DNA of 64,000 bases, from the NCBI RefSeq assembly GCF_902764455.1, contig NZ_CACWVY010000002.1:1-64000 (forward strand), read 5' to 3'. The notes under the pieces were generated by a model, which ran no database searches, had not been told where the DNA came from, and saw only the letters and a list, made by a program, of their open reading frames with translations. Positions 36,773-46,391 of this stretch are shown piece after piece (positions within the stretch are counted from its first letter, which is position 1; the number at the start of each line of letters is the position of its first letter). Position numbers and translations under genes: made by a program. This DNA is from an uncultured Methanobrevibacter sp. Lineage in GTDB: Archaea > Methanobacteriota > Methanobacteria > Methanobacteriales > Methanobacteriaceae.

Positions 36773-37199
36773 ATTTAATTTTTCCACATCAAATTATTTT
36801 TTCTGCAAATACCTATTATTCTTTTTCAGTTCAAAAATGTAACTTACCTACATTTAATAGTAATATTGAGTAGTTTATACTGTCAATTTGATAGTTTAAA
36901 CCCAATTCCGCATAATATTTCCATTAGTATGACATTGTTTGTTTCATCAGAATTAAATAATCTATTTCTTTAGCACATTCATTTACAAGTTCATACTTAT
37001 CAGTTTTATTAAAGAACACACTTACCATTATTTCACCATTAGATCAATATTTTCATTTAAAGTCTTTTAAACAGATTTTGTTTATAAATATGATTAAACA
37101 ATACTAGTTTAAGCGATTTTAAGTTTCAATAATACCCTATAAGACAAAAATCTAAAAGAAAATATTAATTTTATTTCCTAATTTTAGTTTTTCAAAACA

Positions 37200-37207
37200 T
37201 TTATATA
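37200..37207 (+). promoter_or_regulatory. TATA box of glnA
   Basis: TTTATATA followed, at the usual ~25-bp distance, by the palindromic operator. The predicted start site (~37230) leaves a leader of about 115 nt before glnA. Confidence 0.6.
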
Positions 37208-37226
37208 TCACTAAAAATAGAATATT

Positions 37227-37252
37227 AGTCGGAAGGAAGTTTCCTTCCGACT
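37227..37252 (+). promoter_or_regulatory. NrpR-type nitrogen operator of glnA
   Basis: A 12-2-12 palindrome, AGTCGGAAGGAA-GT-TTCCTTCCGACT, containing two overlapping copies of GGAA-N6-TTCC, the operator bound by the nitrogen repressor NrpR in Methanococcus. It covers the predicted glnA transcription start, where a bound repressor would block RNA polymerase. The glutamate synthase operon downstream has no such site. Confidence 0.75.
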
Positions 37253-37346
37253 ATGTATTTAATTAAATTCATTAAGTCAAAAAGGGTTTTCCACTTCCCA
37301 TATTTTCAAGAAAATGGAAAATAGACTCTAAAAATGAAGTGAAAAA

Positions 37347-38684
37347 ATGTCAGCAAAAGATAACAAATTAGACCAAATAATCAAAACAATTGAAGTAAAT
37401 GACATAAAATTCTTAAAACTAGAATTTTCAGACATACATGGACTGCCTAAAAGCATGGCAGTACCTCTTAAAAAAGCTAATGATGTTGAAGATATAGTAA
37501 AAGACGGATTATTATTTGACGGATCATCAGTAGCAGGATTAGCTTCAATCAACGACAGTGATTTACTTGCAAAACCGGATATTGATACATTCTCAACTAT
37601 CCCTTGGAGGCCTGAATCAAAAGGTACAAGCAGATTCATATGTGATATTTTCACCACAGAAGGAAAACCGTATGACGGAGATCCAAGAGGCGTACTCAAA
37701 AAATCATTACAGATTGCAGAAAAAAAAGGATACCAGTTTAATATGGGTCCTGAACCGGAATTCTTCATTATAAAAGAAGATGAAAACGGAAACTACATCC
37801 CTGCTGATGAAGCCGAATACTTTGATGTGGAACCTCTAGACCAAGGTACAGATATCAGAAGAGAAATCGTACTGGGATTAGAAAAACTAGATTTCAATGT
37901 AGAAGTAAGTCACCACGAAGTAGCAGCAGGACAGCACGAAGTTGATTTTAAATATGCAGACGCTTTAAAAACAGCTGATGCAGTAATAACATTCAAAGAA
38001 GCTGTTAAAGCATTAGTAAACAAATTAGGATTTAAAGCAACATTCATGCCAAAACCATTTATGGGAATCAACGGTAGTGGAATGCACTGTAATCAAAGTC
38101 TTTTTAAAGACGGGAAAAATATTTTCTATGATCCTGATACTGAAACTCAAATATCACAGGAAGCATTATACTTCATTGGAGGATTGCTAAAACATGCACC
38201 GGCATTATCATCAATCTTATCTCCTACCGTCAACTCATATAAACGTTTAGTGCCTGGTTACGAAGCACCATGTTACATTGCTTACGGTTTTAAAAACAGG
38301 TCAACATTATTAAGAATTCCTGCATCCCGTGGATTAGGTACAAGAATTGAATGCAGATCTGCTGACCCATCATGTAACCCATACTTAGCATTCGCAGTAT
38401 TGCTTGAAGCAGGTTTAGACGGTATGAACAATAAAATTGACCCAGGTGAACCAACAGAAGAAAACCTATTCGCATTCACTGAAGATGAGATTGCAGAAAA
38501 AGGAATCAGCAGTTTACCAACAAGTTTATGGGAAGCATATCACTCACTCGAAGAAGACGAAGTTGTTAAAAATGCTCTTGGAGAAAAAGTATTTAATCAA
38601 TTCTACAACATCAAAAGAGCTGAATGGGATGCTTATAGAATACAAGTATTCGATTATGAAAGGGACGAATACCTAAACGTGTAA
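37347..38684 (+). CDS. glnA: Glutamine synthetase (type I)
   Basis: ATP-dependent amidation of glutamate, 445 aa. [70 protein letters not shown] (metal and ammonium sites) and the C-terminal region are those of a GSI-alpha enzyme. The adenylylation-loop Tyr region of the beta type is absent, as usual in archaea. It is controlled by the NrpR-type operator upstream and followed by the glutamate synthase genes, giving a GS-GOGAT unit. Confidence 0.98.
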
Positions 38685-38988
38685 ATATTCATTATTGGAG
38701 TCAAATTTTTGACTACCAATTAATTCTAAATTTTTTGGAGGTAATAAACAAGAAATGATAAATACGCTCAAATTTGGCAGTTGAATTTCAGAATTATTAT
38801 TTTAAGGCATATGGTAATTTCAGAGAGTTAACGTTTAAAGGCATATGAAAAAGTATTTTATGATTATTATTTTAAAAGGCATATGAGAATTTTTGGATAT
38901 TAATTTTAAGGCATATGATAAAAATATCCGTTTAAAATAAGATTAACTTAAAATACGTGTATTCACCGATTATCTTGGAGGTAGAAGA
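38685..38988. other. glnA-gltB1 intergenic region
   Basis: 304 bp. It contains GGAGGT at 38737-38742 followed by a nine-codon frame (ATG 38755, stop 38782-38784), then the four AAGGCATATG repeats, and finally the GGAGGTAGAAG ribosome-binding site of the amidotransferase gene. No intrinsic terminator is obvious, so read-through from glnA cannot be excluded. Confidence 0.45.
38804..38917 (+). repeat. Four direct repeats of AAGGCATATG upstream of the glutamate synthase operon
   Basis: Exact copies at 38804-38813, 38838-38847, 38876-38885 and 38908-38917, most within a longer TTTTAAGGCATATGR context, separated by 22-28 bp. Starts are 34, 38 and 32 bp apart, near three helical turns, so the sites lie close to one face of the helix. 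CATATG is itself palindromic. This looks like an array of sites for a transcription regulator; the regulator is unknown. The 10-mer was not noticed elsewhere in the window. Confidence 0.7.
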
Positions 38989-39906
38989 ATGTGTGGAATA
39001 GCAGGTGTAATATACAAAGATAAGAAAACTTACCCCGTAGGAGAAGCATTAACATCAATGCTTGAATCCCTACAACACAGAGGTCCTGATTCAGCAGGTT
39101 ATGCAATCTACGGCAGTTTAGATTTTCCTGATAATTATTATCAATTAAACATTGAAGTACAAAGAAAAAGAGGAGCATTAGATAATTTAAAATCATTATT
39201 AAATCAAATAAGTCCAATATTCGAAGAACAGTTAATTGAATCCGTAGGAGACTCAGACGTATACAAATGCAAAATATCACTGAACGAATATTCCCGTTTA
39301 AAACCCTGCATAAGAGAAATTGACGAACTGGAAAATGTACGGGTCATCAACGGGTCACATTCATTTGAAATGATAAAGGACGTTGGAAAAGTAAAAGACA
39401 TTGCAGAGAGATTTGATGTCAAAAGCAGGATGGGAACCCATGGAATAGGACATACCCGTTTTGCAACAGAAAGTGGTGTGGACCGCTATCATGCACACCC
39501 ATATCAAAGCTACATCATACCTGATATAACCGTAGTGCACAACGGACAAATCACCAATTACTGGAAAATAAGAGATCCTCTAGAAAGAAAAGGACATAAA
39601 TTTGAATCATTCAACGATACCGAATGCATTGTTCATTACATGGCTGACAAACTCAATCAAGGATATAAATTAGAAGAAGCCTTAGATCAGGCAGTGATTG
39701 ATTTGGACGGACCATTTTCAATATTGGTAGGAACACCTAATGGAATAGGCATTGCAAAGGACAAACTCGGTCTCAGACCAGGAGTAATGGTGGAAACTGA
39801 TGAAATCTTTGCAATAGCTTCAGAGGAAATGGCATTGCATAACGTAACAGATTCTGATAAAATTGAACAAATTGCTCCAGGAGAAACAAGAGCATACACA
39901 ATCTAA
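38989..39906 (+). CDS. Glutamate synthase amidotransferase subunit (archaeal GltB1)
   Basis: Class II glutamine amidotransferase, 305 aa, corresponding to the N-terminal domain of bacterial GltB. The start MCGIAGVIYKDK exposes the catalytic Cys2 after Met removal; LQHRGPDSAGYAIYG, GIGHTRFAT, VVHNGQITNYWKIR and ESFNDTECIVHYM are the classical glutaminase motifs. It releases ammonia from glutamine for the synthase subunit. Preceded by GGAGGTAGAAG. First of the four-gene archaeal glutamate synthase set. Confidence 0.95.
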   Translation: MCGIAGVIYKDKKTYPVGEALTSMLESLQHRGPDSAGYAIYGSLDFPDNYYQLNIEVQRKRGALDNLKSLLNQISPIFEEQLIESVGDSDVYKCKISLNEYSRLKPCIREIDELENVRVINGSHSFEMIKDVGKVKDIAERFDVKSRMGTHGIGHTRFATESGVDRYHAHPYQSYIIPDITVVHNGQITNYWKIRDPLERKGHKFESFNDTECIVHYMADKLNQGYKLEEALDQAVIDLDGPFSILVGTPNGIGIAKDKLGLRPGVMVETDEIFAIASEEMALHNVTDSDKIEQIAPGETRAYTI

Positions 39907-39921
39907 TAAGAGGTTTTGTCT

Positions 39922-40575
39922 ATGAAAGAATATGTTATAAATGCAAAGGACATGGACGAGAAAGAATTAAACCGTACCATAAAACAACAGGCTACAAATC
40001 ATGATACACTCCTTATTAATAATCCAGAATCAATGCACAATATCTGTGCAGGCCTAAGTGAAGATGTTGAAATAAAAATAAACGGATCTGCAGGTTATTT
40101 TGTTGGGACTATGGTCAACGGACCAAAAATACACATCGACGGAAATGCCGGTTGGTTTGCTGGAGACAATATGACCAAAGGAGAACTGATTATTGAAGGT
40201 ACCGCAGGTGACGGTGCAGGACAGGGAATCTATGGTGGAACCGTTATTGTAAAAGGAAATACAGGTTCAAGAACCGGAGAAATAATGAAAGGAGGAACCG
40301 TAATAATTGGAGGAAACAGCGGATATATGACAGGACTGTTAATGATGGGCGGCAGACTCATAATACTCGGCGATGTTACCGATGATGCAGGCGAATCAAT
40401 CATGAGAGGTAGCATTTATGTTCTCGGAGACGTGAAAAGCCTAGGCAAAAATGCCACCATGGAAAAAATCACCGCTGAAGATCAAAATGAACTAAAAGAA
40501 ATTCTGACAAAATACGGTTTTGAATTAAGCGACAAAGATTATACAAATTTTAAAAAAATCGTTAATATACAATAG
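39922..40575 (+). CDS. Glutamate synthase GXGXG-domain subunit (archaeal GltB3)
   Basis: 217-aa right-handed beta-helix corresponding to the C-terminal domain of bacterial GltB. Repeated GG/G-rich turns are visible: GSAGYFVGTMVNGPKIHIDG, GTAGDGAGQGIYGGTVIVKG, GNTGSRTGEIMKGGTVIIGG. It has a structural and ammonia-tunnel role. An ATG 6 bp inside the longest frame is preferred, with AAGAGG upstream; the upstream TTG is less likely. Confidence 0.93.
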   Translation: MKEYVINAKDMDEKELNRTIKQQATNHDTLLINNPESMHNICAGLSEDVEIKINGSAGYFVGTMVNGPKIHIDGNAGWFAGDNMTKGELIIEGTAGDGAGQGIYGGTVIVKGNTGSRTGEIMKGGTVIIGGNSGYMTGLLMMGGRLIILGDVTDDAGESIMRGSIYVLGDVKSLGKNATMEKITAEDQNELKEILTKYGFELSDKDYTNFKKIVNIQ

Positions 40576-40586
40576 GAGCTAAAAAA

Positions 40587-41660
40587 ATGAGCGACAATAG
40601 AATAGCTATGGTTGGAACACCATGTGAAATTATGGCAGCATCCAAACTGCAACATTATACCGATAGCCCTATTGATGTTAAACTGGGCTTATTCTGTATG
40701 GAGAACTTTTCATACAAATACTTTGAAAACCTCCTGGAAGAATACGATTTGAAAATGGACGACATAGAAAAATTCCAGATAGAAAAAGGTTATATATTCT
40801 TATTATTGAAAACAAAGGAAACAGTAAAAATACCTTTATCAGTAGCTAAAAGAGTAATCAGAAAGAATTGCAGCATATGTGTTGAACTGACATCAGAGAC
40901 ATCAGATATCTCAATAGGTTCTATTGGATCAGAGGAAGGATGGTCTACATTAATTATCAGAACCGAAAAAGGCGAAGAAATAGTTAACGGAGCATTAGAA
41001 CAAAAGTTCATTGAAGCAAAAGAGCTTAATGAAACACAATTCGAATTACTAAACAGAATTGCAGAAACAAAAATAAGCAAAAATATGGAAGAAATTGAAA
41101 AAAGAGAATTTTTGGCTAGGCCTGTACTATATCAAAGGAATAAATCAGATGATGAAATTGCAAAAGAAATCTCAGAATCCCAATTCTTAGATTTAAAATC
41201 AAACGTTATTGATGTTGGTGCATGTGTTCTGTGCGGAGCATGCGAATATGCATGTCCGGATAACCTAATTACAATTGACGATACAAAACCGATAATGAGA
41301 GGTGAATGCCTAGAGGACTGCCACCTATGCTTTGCGGTTTGTCCAAGAACTTTTATACCTGAAAATTTACGAAATGACAACACAAAAGTAATCGGAGACT
41401 ACATAAAAGTATTGACAGTGAAATCCATAAAACACAGTCAGGGTCAAGACGGTTCAATCGTTACAACATTGCTGGATTACTTATTGGCAAATGGAATTAT
41501 TACTGAAGCAGTCATTGTTGATAAAGAAGATCATTTAGCTTGGAAACCTTATGCAAAGCTAACAAATGCCATTGATGATATCATCAAATCCGGAGGAACA
41601 AAATATTCAGTCTGTCCGGTATTCAAGCCATTGAAAAATATTAAAGAGGAGGCAAATTAG
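40587..41660 (+). CDS. FrhB-like F420/ferredoxin protein with circularly permuted domain order
   Basis: 357 aa. Residues 1-165 match the C-terminal two thirds of FrhB (MVGTPCEIMAASKLQ, GLFCMENFSY, CSICVELTSETSDISIGSIG, EGWSTLIIRT). Residues 210-255 are a 2x[4Fe-4S] ferredoxin (C213, C216, C219, C223; C241, C245, C248, C252). Residues 271-354 match the N-terminal third of FrhB (HSQGQDGSIVTTLLDYLL, SGGTKYSVCPVF). The FrhB halves are thus swapped around the ferredoxin. FrhB proteins bind FAD and coenzyme F420, so this could pass electrons from F420H2 to the synthase. It is coupled to neighbours by an AGGAG site and 11-bp spacing. Confidence 0.85.
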   Translation: MSDNRIAMVGTPCEIMAASKLQHYTDSPIDVKLGLFCMENFSYKYFENLLEEYDLKMDDIEKFQIEKGYIFLLLKTKETVKIPLSVAKRVIRKNCSICVELTSETSDISIGSIGSEEGWSTLIIRTEKGEEIVNGALEQKFIEAKELNETQFELLNRIAETKISKNMEEIEKREFLARPVLYQRNKSDDEIAKEISESQFLDLKSNVIDVGACVLCGACEYACPDNLITIDDTKPIMRGECLEDCHLCFAVCPRTFIPENLRNDNTKVIGDYIKVLTVKSIKHSQGQDGSIVTTLLDYLLANGIITEAVIVDKEDHLAWKPYAKLTNAIDDIIKSGGTKYSVCPVFKPLKNIKEEAN

Positions 41661-43148
41661 ATGTCATTTACTGTTGAGAGAAAAATCGAAATATGCAGAC
41701 AGAGCAATAATAGACCTGGCTGCTGCTGGTATCTGTGTGACAATCCGAAAAAATCAGCATGTAAAAACTGTTACAGCTGCTATTCAAATTGCCCCCACAA
41801 CGTATATGAAGTAATCAATGACGAACCATTACCGATTCGTCAGGAAAATTGTGTTGGATGTAAAATCTGTGAAGAAATGTGTCCGACACATGCAATATAC
41901 GTAAGACCCCTTGTTGATGAAGGAAGAGGAGTCTGGTCAAATTCAACAATGGTTGAAATCAAACGTAAAAGCCAGACAGGATCATATAAAGTGAGAGGTT
42001 GTGGATTAACCCGGAAAATCCCAACATTTGATGATTTAAGCATATTGCCCGCCCAGGTTTCAAGACCTCCGATTGATTCCTACAGAGAAACATGTAAAAC
42101 ATCCGTCGTTCTTGGAGACAGATTTGCTGAAAATCCTATTGAAATAGACACTCCAATTATGATTGGAGCAATGTCTTTTGGTGCATTAAGTAAAGAAGCT
42201 AAAATAGCATTAGCTATTGGAAGCAGCAAAGTTGGATCAATTGCCAATACCGGTGAAGGAGGAATGCTTCCAGAAGAAAGACATTATGCTGATAAATTAA
42301 TTGCACAATATGCATCAGGCCGTTTTGGAGTTTCAGCAAGCTACCTGAATAATGCAGAAGCAGTTGAAATAAAGATAGGTCAAGGTGCAAAATCAGGTAT
42401 GGGAGGACATTTGCTTGCCCATAAAGTAACAGCAGAAGTAGCTAAAGTAAGAAATATCCCAGAAGGAACCTCCGCATTAAGTCCTGCAAGACACATGGAT
42501 ATTGTCGGACCTGAAGACTTGGGTATGAAAATCAATCAGTTAAGAGAAATTACTGACTGGAAAATACCTATTATCGTAAAATTCGCATCAGGCAGAGTAG
42601 AGCAGGACGTAAAGATTGCAGCAAAGGCAGGTGCTGATATTATTGTAGTTGACGGCATGCAGGGCGGAACCGGTGCAGGACCCGAAGTAGTTACAGAACA
42701 TGCAGGTATTCCAACAATAGAAGCTATAGTTAAAGCTGATGATGCACTTAAAGACATTAATTTAAGAAGTGAAGTGAGCCTTGTAGCAGCTGGAGGAATA
42801 CGATCCGGAGCAGATGTTGCAAAAGCAATAGCTTTAGGTGCAGATGCAGTATATATCGCAACTTCAGCATTGATTTCAATAGGATGTAAAGTCTGTCAAT
42901 CCTGTTCTGAGGGCATTTGTCCGAAAGGAATTGCAACACAGGACAGAGTGCTTAGAAGAAGATTAGATCCTATAAGAAAAGGTCAGCAAGTCGCAAATTA
43001 CATTGAAGCAATGACTCAGGAAGTAACATCACTAACCCAGCAAGCAGGAAATACCGATATAGAAAATCTTGAACGTGAAGACCTTGTTGCATTGACTATG
43101 GAAGCTTCACAATTGACTGGAGTGCCGATGGTGAGCAAACAGCATTAA
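41661..43148 (+). CDS. Glutamate synthase, FMN-binding catalytic subunit (archaeal GltB2)
   Basis: 495 aa. An N-terminal ferredoxin-like part (CKNCYSCYSNCPHNVY, CVGCKICEEMCPTHA) precedes the FMN-binding TIM barrel, with PIMIGAMSFGALSKEAKIAL, NTGEGGMLPEE, VVDGMQGGTGAGP and VAAGGIRSGADVAKAIALGA. A cysteine cluster, CKVCQSCSEGICPKGI, matches the 3Fe-4S site of GltB. It converts 2-oxoglutarate plus ammonia from the amidotransferase to glutamate. It begins directly after the FrhB-like gene with GAGGAGG as ribosome site. Confidence 0.96.
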   Translation: MSFTVERKIEICRQSNNRPGCCWYLCDNPKKSACKNCYSCYSNCPHNVYEVINDEPLPIRQENCVGCKICEEMCPTHAIYVRPLVDEGRGVWSNSTMVEIKRKSQTGSYKVRGCGLTRKIPTFDDLSILPAQVSRPPIDSYRETCKTSVVLGDRFAENPIEIDTPIMIGAMSFGALSKEAKIALAIGSSKVGSIANTGEGGMLPEERHYADKLIAQYASGRFGVSASYLNNAEAVEIKIGQGAKSGMGGHLLAHKVTAEVAKVRNIPEGTSALSPARHMDIVGPEDLGMKINQLREITDWKIPIIVKFASGRVEQDVKIAAKAGADIIVVDGMQGGTGAGPEVVTEHAGIPTIEAIVKADDALKDINLRSEVSLVAAGGIRSGADVAKAIALGADAVYIATSALISIGCKVCQSCSEGICPKGIATQDRVLRRRLDPIRKGQQVANYIEAMTQEVTSLTQQAGNTDIENLEREDLVALTMEASQLTGVPMVSKQH

Positions 43149-43175
43149 AACAAATGAATATTAGGAGACAATATT

Positions 43176-45821
43176 ATGGCAGCATTCGAAAGAATCAAAT
43201 CAGGGATTCCCGGGCTTGACGAAGCTTTAGACAACATTCGTTTAGGAGATAACGTGGTTTGGAACGTTACAAACTTAAATGAATTTTCATACTTTGTCAA
43301 TCCTTATGTAAGACAAGCAAAAGAGGATAACAGAAACTTAATATACATTCGGTTTGCCAATCATCCTCCATTAATAGAAATGACAGAAGAAGACTTTAAA
43401 CTGCTTGAAATCGAACAGGAAAATCCTGACACCGAATTTTGCATGATAGAACGTGACGGGATTAAAATATATAAAGTAAATCCCTATAACCAGTTTGAGA
43501 CATTTACCTTAGAAGTTCACAGAATTATAGAAAAGGAAGGATTTGACGCATTTTATGTATTTGACTGCCTAAGTGATCTTCAGGCAGTATGGTCAACAGA
43601 TTTAATGATGGGGAATTTCTTTAAGGTTACCTGCCCATTTCTGTTCCAGCTGGATACCGTAGCATATTTCCCTATTATTCGAGGAAGACATTCATATGAC
43701 GCCATAGCAAAAATTCGTGAAACTACCCAGCTATTCCTGAATGTGTATTCCAATTCACCAGAAGAACTTTATGTTTCTCCTTTAAAGGTATGGAACAGAT
43801 ATTCACAAACCATGTTTTTGGGACATAAGTTCAACCCTCAAACCGGTTTCGTTAAAGTCCTTCAGGACGGCCAGGAAGTAAGCAAATACTATAAGACTAT
43901 CAACGATTCAGACAAATATCAGAACGGACAGATTCTGGACAGCTGGGAAAGGTACATGCTTCAGGTCAGAATGAAGTATGAAGAAGGCGAAAATATCGAT
44001 GACGAGTGCGACAAAATATGTGAGCTGATGATGACCAAAGACGAAAGGATGCTTTCCAAGATTAAGGAATATTTTACCTTTGAAGACTACATTACCATCT
44101 ATGACCGTCGTGTGGGAAGCGGATTGGTCGGAGGTAAATCCTGCGGAATGCTGCTTGCAAGAAAAATAATCGAGAAAAACTGTCCGGAAATATACAACAA
44201 TAGCTTTGAACCTGATGATTCATTCTATATAGGCTCTGATTTATTTTACACTTATATCGTTTCTAATGACCTCTGGGATTTACGAGTAAAACAGAGAACA
44301 CCCGAAGGTTATTATGAATATGGAAAAAAACTGGAAGATGCTCTTAAAAATGGAACATTTTCTGATGAAATAAAAAAAGAATTCATACACATATTGGACT
44401 ATTTCGGACAGAATCCTATCATTGTGCGCTCAAGCAGTTTTCTTGAAGACGGATACGGAAATGCATTTGCAGGTAAATACGAATCAGTATTCTGCGCAAA
44501 TAGAGGAAGTCTTGAAGAACGTTTAGATGCATTTGAAGAAGCTGTAAAAATTGTATATTCCAGTACCATGAATATTTCAGCTTTGGAATACCGGAAATTA
44601 AACGATTTGGACGATACTGATGAACAAATGGGTCTTTTAGTTCAAAGGGTTTCAGGATCATATTATGGAGACTATTTATTCCCTACCGCCGCAGGAGTAG
44701 GTTTTTCATACAGTCCATATTCTCCGCTTCCAGACATGGACAACAGCAAGGGAATGTTAAGACTTGTAATGGGTCTCGGTACAAAGGCTGTTGACCGGAC
44801 CAAAAAGGATTATCCCAGAATAATCAATCTTGACAAACCGGAAGTAACTCTAACAAAAGATATTAAAGAAAAACACAGATATTCCCAGCATTATCTTGAT
44901 GTTATTGACCTTAAAAATATCAATCAGCACGACATCCCCGTTGATGACGGTTTGAAGATAATTCCAAGATATGCTAAAAAAGTTCTGGTTGAGCATGACA
45001 GAGAAGCAGAAAGGATGTTTCGTGACAGAGGACAACGCCGTGAAATTGTATTTGTAAACTGTGAAGGAATTGTAAAAAATCACGAATTCATTGAGGTAAT
45101 GAAAGAAATTTTAAGCACATTGGAAACCGCATATGACTATCCTGTCGACATTGAATATACAGTTAATATCGGAGAGGACAATTCCTTTAACATAAACCTG
45201 CTGCAATGCCGCCCTCTTCAAGTATCAACAAATAACGAATCAATAGAAATGCCTGAAGACAAAAATGTTTTCTTCCATATTAAAGAATCCTCAATGGGAA
45301 TGTCCCGAAAAAATAAAATAGACACCATATGCTATGTCGACCCCCATAAGTATTATGAGTATCCATATGCTCAAAAAAGTTCAATATCCCGTGTGATAAG
45401 TGACGTGAATACCTACTGTAAAAACAATGACAAAACAGCAATTTTAATAGTTCCCGGAAGAATCGGTACATCTTCACCTGAATTAGGTATTCCAGTAGTA
45501 TTTGCAGACATAAGTCATTTCACAGCAATTCTAGAGGAATCATATAGCGAAGTCGGATACATGCCAGAATTATCATTTGGAAGCCATATGTTCCAGGATT
45601 TGGTAGAAGCGGAAATATACTATGGTGCACTGTTTGAAAATGAGAAAAAAATAGAATTCAACAGAGACATGGTATTTGAGCGTCAAAACATCCTAAAGGA
45701 CATCAATCCTAATTTAAATGAGGAAGTATATCAGATGATACAAGTCATAGACTTCGATGAAAATAAAGCGGAACTATACCATGACATGAACAAAGACGAA
45801 ACACTGTGTATTTTCAAATAA
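43176..45821 (+). CDS. KaiC-like / PEP-synthase ATP-grasp fusion protein
   Basis: 881 aa. Residues 1-245 resemble a KaiC/RadA-type fold, starting IKSGIPGLDEALDNIRLGDN, but the Walker A loop (GxxGxGKT) is absent, so this domain should not hydrolyse ATP. About 300-690 is a pyruvate-phosphate-dikinase N-terminal ATP-binding domain: GSGLVGGKSCGMLLARKI, PIIVRSSSFLEDGYGNAFAG, NINLLQCRPLQ. The catalytic His domain and PEP-binding barrel of true PEP synthase are absent. Its substrate is unknown. It is 27 bp after gltB2 with its own TAGGAGA site, so it may be the last gene of the nitrogen operon. Confidence 0.85.
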   Translation: MAAFERIKSGIPGLDEALDNIRLGDNVVWNVTNLNEFSYFVNPYVRQAKEDNRNLIYIRFANHPPLIEMTEEDFKLLEIEQENPDTEFCMIERDGIKIYKVNPYNQFETFTLEVHRIIEKEGFDAFYVFDCLSDLQAVWSTDLMMGNFFKVTCPFLFQLDTVAYFPIIRGRHSYDAIAKIRETTQLFLNVYSNSPEELYVSPLKVWNRYSQTMFLGHKFNPQTGFVKVLQDGQEVSKYYKTINDSDKYQNGQILDSWERYMLQVRMKYEEGENIDDECDKICELMMTKDERMLSKIKEYFTFEDYITIYDRRVGSGLVGGKSCGMLLARKIIEKNCPEIYNNSFEPDDSFYIGSDLFYTYIVSNDLWDLRVKQRTPEGYYEYGKKLEDALKNGTFSDEIKKEFIHILDYFGQNPIIVRSSSFLEDGYGNAFAGKYESVFCANRGSLEERLDAFEEAVKIVYSSTMNISALEYRKLNDLDDTDEQMGLLVQRVSGSYYGDYLFPTAAGVGFSYSPYSPLPDMDNSKGMLRLVMGLGTKAVDRTKKDYPRIINLDKPEVTLTKDIKEKHRYSQHYLDVIDLKNINQHDIPVDDGLKIIPRYAKKVLVEHDREAERMFRDRGQRREIVFVNCEGIVKNHEFIEVMKEILSTLETAYDYPVDIEYTVNIGEDNSFNINLLQCRPLQVSTNNESIEMPEDKNVFFHIKESSMGMSRKNKIDTICYVDPHKYYEYPYAQKSSISRVISDVNTYCKNNDKTAILIVPGRIGTSSPELGIPVVFADISHFTAILEESYSEVGYMPELSFGSHMFQDLVEAEIYYGALFENEKKIEFNRDMVFERQNILKDINPNLNEEVYQMIQVIDFDENKAELYHDMNKDETLCIFK

Positions 45822-46391
45822 TCAGGCCATGATTAAAACACGATTATAATGGAAATTATTTCATTATTAGGGCAGGCGGGTGGGACATATGCCTTTTTAT
45901 TTGATAATTCTTTTAAACAAAAAAGATTTTTCAAATAACGAAAACGTATGACAAAATCTTTGATGTGATTAACGGCCCTATTGAAATTTTTACAATAGGG
46001 CTGTTTCACATGTTTTTTAAGCTATTTTATTTTAATATAAAACCAACATCAAAACCATTTAAAAAAAACAAATTATTGAAAATTCATATATCTTCGATTG
46101 GAAAAGATTGATGAAATAAATAACCCACACCAATATATGAAATTAATAATGATTTAAATTAAAAATTTTAATTAAAAATACAATTTAATGTTACTCAGAT
46201 TTAATTTAAATTAGGTTTCAAAATTAGCAGTACCAAGACCAAGTATAACCTGCTTACAATGATGTTTAAAAAAAATAATGGAGACACAAATTAAATTTAC
46301 CCCATCGTAATTTTAACAGGACCAAATTTTGAATTTTAACAATTTTTTGATTTTTATCCCTTAAAAAGAAAAAAAGGAGAAAAATACTTGT
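45822..46391. other. Intergenic region with terminator-like hairpin
   Basis: 570 bp between the 3' ends of the PEP-synthase-like gene and the OYE-like gene. The first 200 bp hold a GC-rich patch (GGCAGGCGGGTGGG, ~45871-45884) followed by a T run, and the strong hairpin listed separately. The remaining ~380 bp is AT-rich, with no gene, RNA or repeat that I can support. Confidence 0.5.
45973..46003 (+). terminator. Stem-loop, probable bidirectional 3'-end signal
   Basis: GCCCTATTG (45975-45983) pairs exactly with CAATAGGGC (45993-46001) around a 9-nt A/T loop; the stem extends two more pairs (C73-G46003, G74-T46002). A T-rich run follows a little later. It lies between converging genes, as expected of a terminator. 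Confidence 0.5.

Follow-up and report, generated by a model that had tools for sequence, protein, structure and literature searches.

The 64,000-nucleotide stretch of an uncultured Methanobrevibacter sp. analysed here (the window) carries, between genes for glutamate synthase subunits, a gene of the FrhB family whose two halves stand in exchanged order. Does this gene encode a genuine circular permutation of FrhB, and does its product link glutamate synthesis to F420H2? The gene (40587..41660, + strand) shows an ATG start and an open frame of 357 aa and is preceded by a Shine-Dalgarno-like AGGAGC. Pfam and structure-chain matches give the order C-domain, ferredoxin, N-domain, all on the + strand. 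FrhB_FdhB_C (PF04432) covers residues 4-149 (40596..41033; 152.5 bits, E 1e-44, curated cut-off 23.3 bits), a 2x[4Fe-4S] ferredoxin occupies residues 207-257 (41205..41357; Pfam Fer4_9 at 212-256, likewise above its curated cut-off), and FrhB_FdhB_N (PF04422) covers residues 283-350 (41433..41636; 61.2 bits, E 1e-16, curated cut-off 22 bits). A linker of residues 174-206 (41106..41204, + strand) leads from the old C-terminal tail to the N-terminus of the ferredoxin. By both domains the protein belongs to the FrhB/FdhB family, and since its C-domain lies ahead of its N-domain instead of behind it, it is a permuted member. It scored below the cut-offs of the hydrogenase FrhB equivalog models TIGR03289 (184 vs. 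331.5 bits) and NF006807 (217 vs. 269 bits). FdhB, the beta subunit of F420-dependent formate dehydrogenase, would be expected to show the order N-C plus extra clusters and to be encoded beside fdhA, whereas here the N-domain follows the ferredoxin and the neighbours are glutamate synthase genes.

Solved protein chains were compared with the permuted protein by phmmer. Residues 7-164 of chain 8riu_B correspond to residues 198-346 of the query and residues 176-347 to residues 4-171. Each strong match to an FrhB-family structure consists of two blocks in exchanged order, including those to Fsr (9tn7, 7npa) and Frh (9r51). Because the structure-chain matches split in this way, the protein represents the Fd-N-C arrangement in complete circular permutation, rather than two loose pieces that have changed places. 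A canonical N-C FrhB from the same genome, which also encodes further FrhB_FdhB_C proteins, served as control. The first-pass annotation had described swapped FrhB halves with a ferredoxin between them, which was confirmed by the Pfam order and by the matches to FrhB-family chains. It had placed the halves at residues 1-165 and 271-357; the halves themselves hold, while their limits were revised to about 1-175 for the C-part and about 266-354 for the N-part. The role of the ferredoxin as the piece that bridges the former C- and N-termini is likewise supported, with about 30 aa separating it from the C-domain.

In the permutation the old C-terminus would have become fused to the ferredoxin, and new chain ends would have arisen between the N- and C-domains; most simply, an Fd-N-C unit may have been duplicated in tandem, after which the outer parts were lost. 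The opening lies in the short connector of the N- and C-domains, which is shortened at the new ends of the permuted family compared to the canonical SALKEATRQYGLEK. The new internal joint is composed of the old C-terminal tail, 17 residues and the old N-terminal lead of the ferredoxin (F-x-D-L). The tail of FrhB (...GLPVPY) resembles the RPVLY of the sequence ...ARPVLY that precedes the linker in the permuted family.

For comparison only, the permuted chain was re-ordered and aligned with the organism's own FrhB. C13, C37, C95 and C98 align with the [4Fe-4S] cysteines C106, C135, C194 and C197, and the flavin-site residues Q287/G289 and K339/Y340 match those of FrhB. The FAD site thus lies in the N-domain, at the start of the QDG helix (287-289) and in the KY loop (339-340). 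In FrhB of M. marburgensis the cluster ligands are C104/C134/C192/C195, and K75-Y76 is the counterpart of the KY loop (PMC3591093). All eight ferredoxin cysteines are kept (C213, C216, C219, C223, C241, C245, C248, C252), and a profile search showed that the internal ferredoxin resembles the C-terminal ferredoxin of FrhG. An alignment of 12 divergent permuted proteins (11 from Methanobacteria plus L124, see below) contains more than 50 invariant columns, spread over the two halves and the ferredoxin.

From an alignment of only 12 sequences, AlphaFold2 yielded a model (pLDDT 80.5, pTM 0.83) in which both halves are confidently predicted to form one compact body. The best Foldseek matches were Frh, a subunit of the Elp-Hdr complex, Fsr, and the F420-linked CODH and formylmethanofuran dehydrogenase modules. 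Good superpositions are confined to a single half (about 180 columns, rmsd mostly 2.4-3.1 Angstrom), because a sequential aligner cannot score permuted alignments.

The first-pass annotation had supposed that the swap might alter the access of F420 and FAD to the ferredoxin. This is not supported: every cofactor ligand is retained and a single compact fold is predicted, so the electrons are expected to take an unaltered path. Fsr and Frh carry their ferredoxin at an identical position on the FrhB fold despite different chain connections (PMC10229431), so a moved covalent joint would be expected to leave the relay intact. Known systems differ in how the parts are connected. The N-terminal half of Fsr and FpoF/FqoF combine ferredoxin and FrhB fold and share the cofactor residues, but in the order Fd-N-C instead of C-Fd-N. 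FrhB with the ferredoxin of FrhG has the same fold and cluster ligands, but the ferredoxin is located on the other chain and the order is N-C. The ethanotroph F420-linked CODH and formylmethanofuran dehydrogenase modules (8riu, 8rja) also place an FrhB-type module on another enzyme, but in canonical order. The permutation is expected to rewire the chain with fold and cofactor relay unchanged, and would represent a clean natural case of such rewiring in a multi-cofactor redox protein without loss of the electron relay.

The survey of other Methanobacteriales proposed in the first-pass annotation revealed the C-Fd-N order in one frame in at least 123 of 151 genomes, counted among those listed. 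One genome (G151) lies outside the order surveyed and its permuted gene was read directly; in two others (G008, G140) the permuted gene is present in pieces at contig ends. The C-Fd-N arrangement spans three families of the Methanobacteriales and also occurs in one genome from a different order of the class (L048). Conservation of this extent in one frame rules out misassembly or a chance order, and conserved residues in both halves together with the AlphaFold model rule out a fusion of unrelated genes. A truncated tandem repeat could yield such an order; nevertheless, a random or misassembled fusion of two unrelated fragments, with halves that form no single FrhB fold, is extremely improbable given the occurrence across the class, the invariant columns that constrain both halves in divergent members, and the pTM of the model.

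Among 96 genomes with a completeness of at least 90%, 88 encode the permuted protein together with a GltB orthologue, seven encode neither and one encodes GltB alone. Joint presence or absence was thus observed in 95 of 96 near-complete genomes (Fisher p ~7e-10, a count that ignores phylogeny). The seven genomes without both genes are near-complete Methanobacteriaceae (G021, G029, G040, G045, G101, G110, G114). The single exception, G010, is an assembly of 300 contigs, in which the permuted gene perhaps falls into a contig gap. In G014, G017 and G046 the FrhB-like gene is unlinked from GltB, and both the permuted order and the co-occurrence are kept; in several lineages the permuted gene has been relocated outside the operon. 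The first-pass annotation had considered that homologues might show the unpermuted order. No unpermuted glt-type copy was seen within Methanobacteria, and the canonical protein of Methanococci belongs to a distant, separate clade.

In the window, glnA (37347..38684, + strand; TIGR00653 573.7 bits), encoding a glutamine synthetase of 445 aa as the upstream pathway partner, is followed by four genes in the order GATase-GXGXG-permuted FrhB-GltB, with gaps of 9, 11 and 0 bp. The first gene (38989..39906, + strand) encodes a class II glutamine amidotransferase (GATase) subunit with the N-terminus MCGIAG (GATase_7, 57 bits), and the second (39916..40575, + strand) a GXGXG subunit related to the C-terminal domain of glutamate synthase and to FwdC (PF01493, 110 bits). 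The last gene (41661..43148, + strand) encodes a GltB-type FMN subunit of glutamate synthase of 495 aa (PF01645, 438 bits) with an N-terminal 2x[4Fe-4S] ferredoxin (Fer4 domains). Its start codon abuts the stop codon of the FrhB-like gene, and its ribosome site GAGGAGG lies within that gene.

The permuted protein probably oxidises F420H2 as one of the four subunits of an F420-dependent glutamate synthase, in line with the F420H2-dependent route proposed in the first-pass annotation; the operon, the phylogenetic co-loss and the conserved cofactor residues all point to this function. The company of GATase, GXGXG and GltB genes fits the F420-dependent glutamate synthase of the Methanobacteriales type, and the halves are swapped as in ADL58239, judged by the legend in PMC3591093. 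Within the FrhB fold, FAD would accept a hydride from F420H2, and single electrons would then pass through the FrhB-type [4Fe-4S] cluster to the two internal ferredoxin clusters. From there they would reach the ferredoxin domain of GltB and its [3Fe-4S]/FMN site, where 2-oxoglutarate and ammonia would be converted to glutamate. The ammonia would be released from glutamine by the GATase subunit and guided by the GXGXG subunit.

The permuted FrhB-fold flavoprotein could also be served in the cell by reduced ferredoxin or another carrier, or work in reverse from glutamate to F420, F420 being secondary. The two ferredoxin clusters and the ferredoxin domain of GltB make an entry of electrons from ferredoxin possible, and the open-licence papers searched contained no biochemical demonstration of F420H2:glutamate synthase activity. 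This reading is nevertheless quite unlikely: the residues for FAD and the FrhB cluster that are common to known F420 enzymes are kept, profile scores favour FrhB, and Methanobacteriales rely on F420 as a main hydride carrier.

The putative F420-dependent glutamate synthase of Methanococci, of the FGltS(I) type (e.g. L246), unites the same four functions in one operon as the glt genes of Methanobacteriales. Its genes are arranged in the order GATase-GltB-GXGXG-FrhB, and its GltB and GATase are about 40% and 25% identical to the window proteins, respectively. In contrast to the permuted C-Fd-N protein, the FrhB of Methanococci shows the canonical order Fd-N-C and forms a separate clade (support 100/100). 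The window subunit, which lacks this order, does not belong to type I. Methanococci thus offer a ready unpermuted comparison for both the effect of the permutation and the electron donor. They also bear on the idea that the permutation was retained for a change of function, with the new termini near the flavin providing a new docking surface for GltB. The shortened connector at the new ends would fit such a surface, but Methanococci run apparently the same enzyme with an Fd-N-C protein, and the unlinked copies hold the permuted order, consistent with simple inheritance. We regard a docking function as rather unlikely and favour a rewired chain with an unchanged relay.

Parts of this picture are already on record. 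MTH193/MTBMA_c06440 was listed as F420-dependent glutamate synthase with the activity still to be proven (Kaster 2011; PMC3087415), and FGltS(I) and FGltS(II) were defined by Susanti & Mukhopadhyay (2012), who filed FGltS(II) as FdhB homologue. FGltS(II)-alpha appears to be the same protein as MTBMA_c06440 (ADL58239)/MTH193. The FdhB label would fit if C-Fd was read as FrhB with C-terminal clusters and the trailing N-domain was missed. Furthermore, the swap is not unreported: according to the legend of Fig. 9 in the eLife 2013 paper on Frh, the last 83 residues of the protein from M. marburgensis correspond to the N-terminus of FrhB and the first 182 to its C-terminus (PMC3591093). Hence both the idea of the F420-dependent glutamate synthase (2011-2012) and the swap in the M. 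marburgensis orthologue (2013) precede our analysis, and text searches of the open-licence literature revealed no papers following up the permutation. From order, description and conserved family we infer that ADL58239 is orthologous to the 357-aa protein. The MTBMA_c06440/MTH193 protein resembles it in its Methanobacteriales host, glutamate synthase set and swap, without a difference in architecture. Our analysis adds the order-wide conservation, the co-loss with GltB, the unlinked yet permuted copies, the unpermuted counterpart in Methanococci and a permuted FrhB linked to pyruvate synthase. The permutation is fixed across a methanogen order, in a central enzyme of nitrogen assimilation with F420H2 as putative donor.

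The further permuted FrhB was detected in a genome of the Halobacteriota (G195; L124/L205). It comprises 344 aa in the order C-Fd-N (G195:C1:27671-28684, - strand) and is 36% identical to P0001. Its gene lies directly upstream of porG, porD and porA (NCBIfam names), which are followed by a porB-like gene and an HdrA-like gene of 658 aa, both named from sequence alone. As ribosomal-protein and SecY-like genes can be read on the same contig, it is not a stray fragment. The model of this protein (pLDDT 67.5, pTM 0.71) is weaker than that of the window protein. A tree of the N- and C-domains separates L124 from the Methanobacteria form without rejecting a single origin (AU p 0.448, dlnL 1.7), and addition of the ferredoxin joins the two with weak support (62/89). 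The linkers have similar lengths (16 residues in L124 vs. 17 in Methanobacteria) and the chains are broken at almost the same point. In its central part, though, the L124 linker is no closer to that of Methanobacteria than shuffled sequences are (700/2000), and the linker was rejected as a marker of common origin.

Neither the 36 genomes from the phylum of a Methanocaldococcus genome nor the 238 from the class of a Methanoperedenaceae genome yielded a permuted FrhB. Across 393 genomes of Halobacteriota, 59 of the class of G195, 58 of the Syntrophoarchaeum class and the 238 just mentioned, the G195 protein was the one permuted protein found; these large surveys scored the best 5-8 candidates per genome, so that weak ones could be missed. 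FrhB6 of ANME-1 is linked to pyruvate (PMC9012536). It was discarded as a further permuted form, as the 58 genomes of the Syntrophoarchaeum class match the C-domain part of the profile only and those loci that were read are canonical. A pyruvate-linked permuted FrhB of the G195 type was not found in the open-licence papers searched. We tentatively consider it possible that the permutation of FrhB arose more than once or gave rise to a portable module, the G195 form, opened at almost the same position, heading a porGDAB and HdrA-like operon for an F420-linked pyruvate oxidoreductase. If true, such rewiring would not be confined to glutamate synthase.

Two other loci (L043, 5579-8116; L052, 5427-7968) encode a second GltB-like protein of about 620 aa, which contains two ferredoxin-like stretches and is accompanied by a GXGXG gene of its own; no FrhB-like neighbour was detected there. 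In the window, the gap between glnA and the glt genes contains four exact direct repeats of AAGGCATATG (38800..38921, + strand) with spacings of 34, 38 and 32 bp. Closely spaced pairs of AAGGCATATG occur only at this site in the genome, and an array of this type was also present in seven of eight relatives read. The array looks like a candidate operator. A block ACGTGTATTCACCGATTATYTT (about 38955-38985), just 5' of the ribosome site of the GATase gene, is nearly identical in several relatives; Rfam gave no match on 37000-44000, including this block. The glt operon is directly followed by a gene for an 881-aa protein (43176-45821) which, by eye, partly resembles PEP synthase/pyruvate phosphate dikinase. 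Just past the end of this gene a further exact copy of AAGGCATATG is located at 45886-45895 on the - strand.
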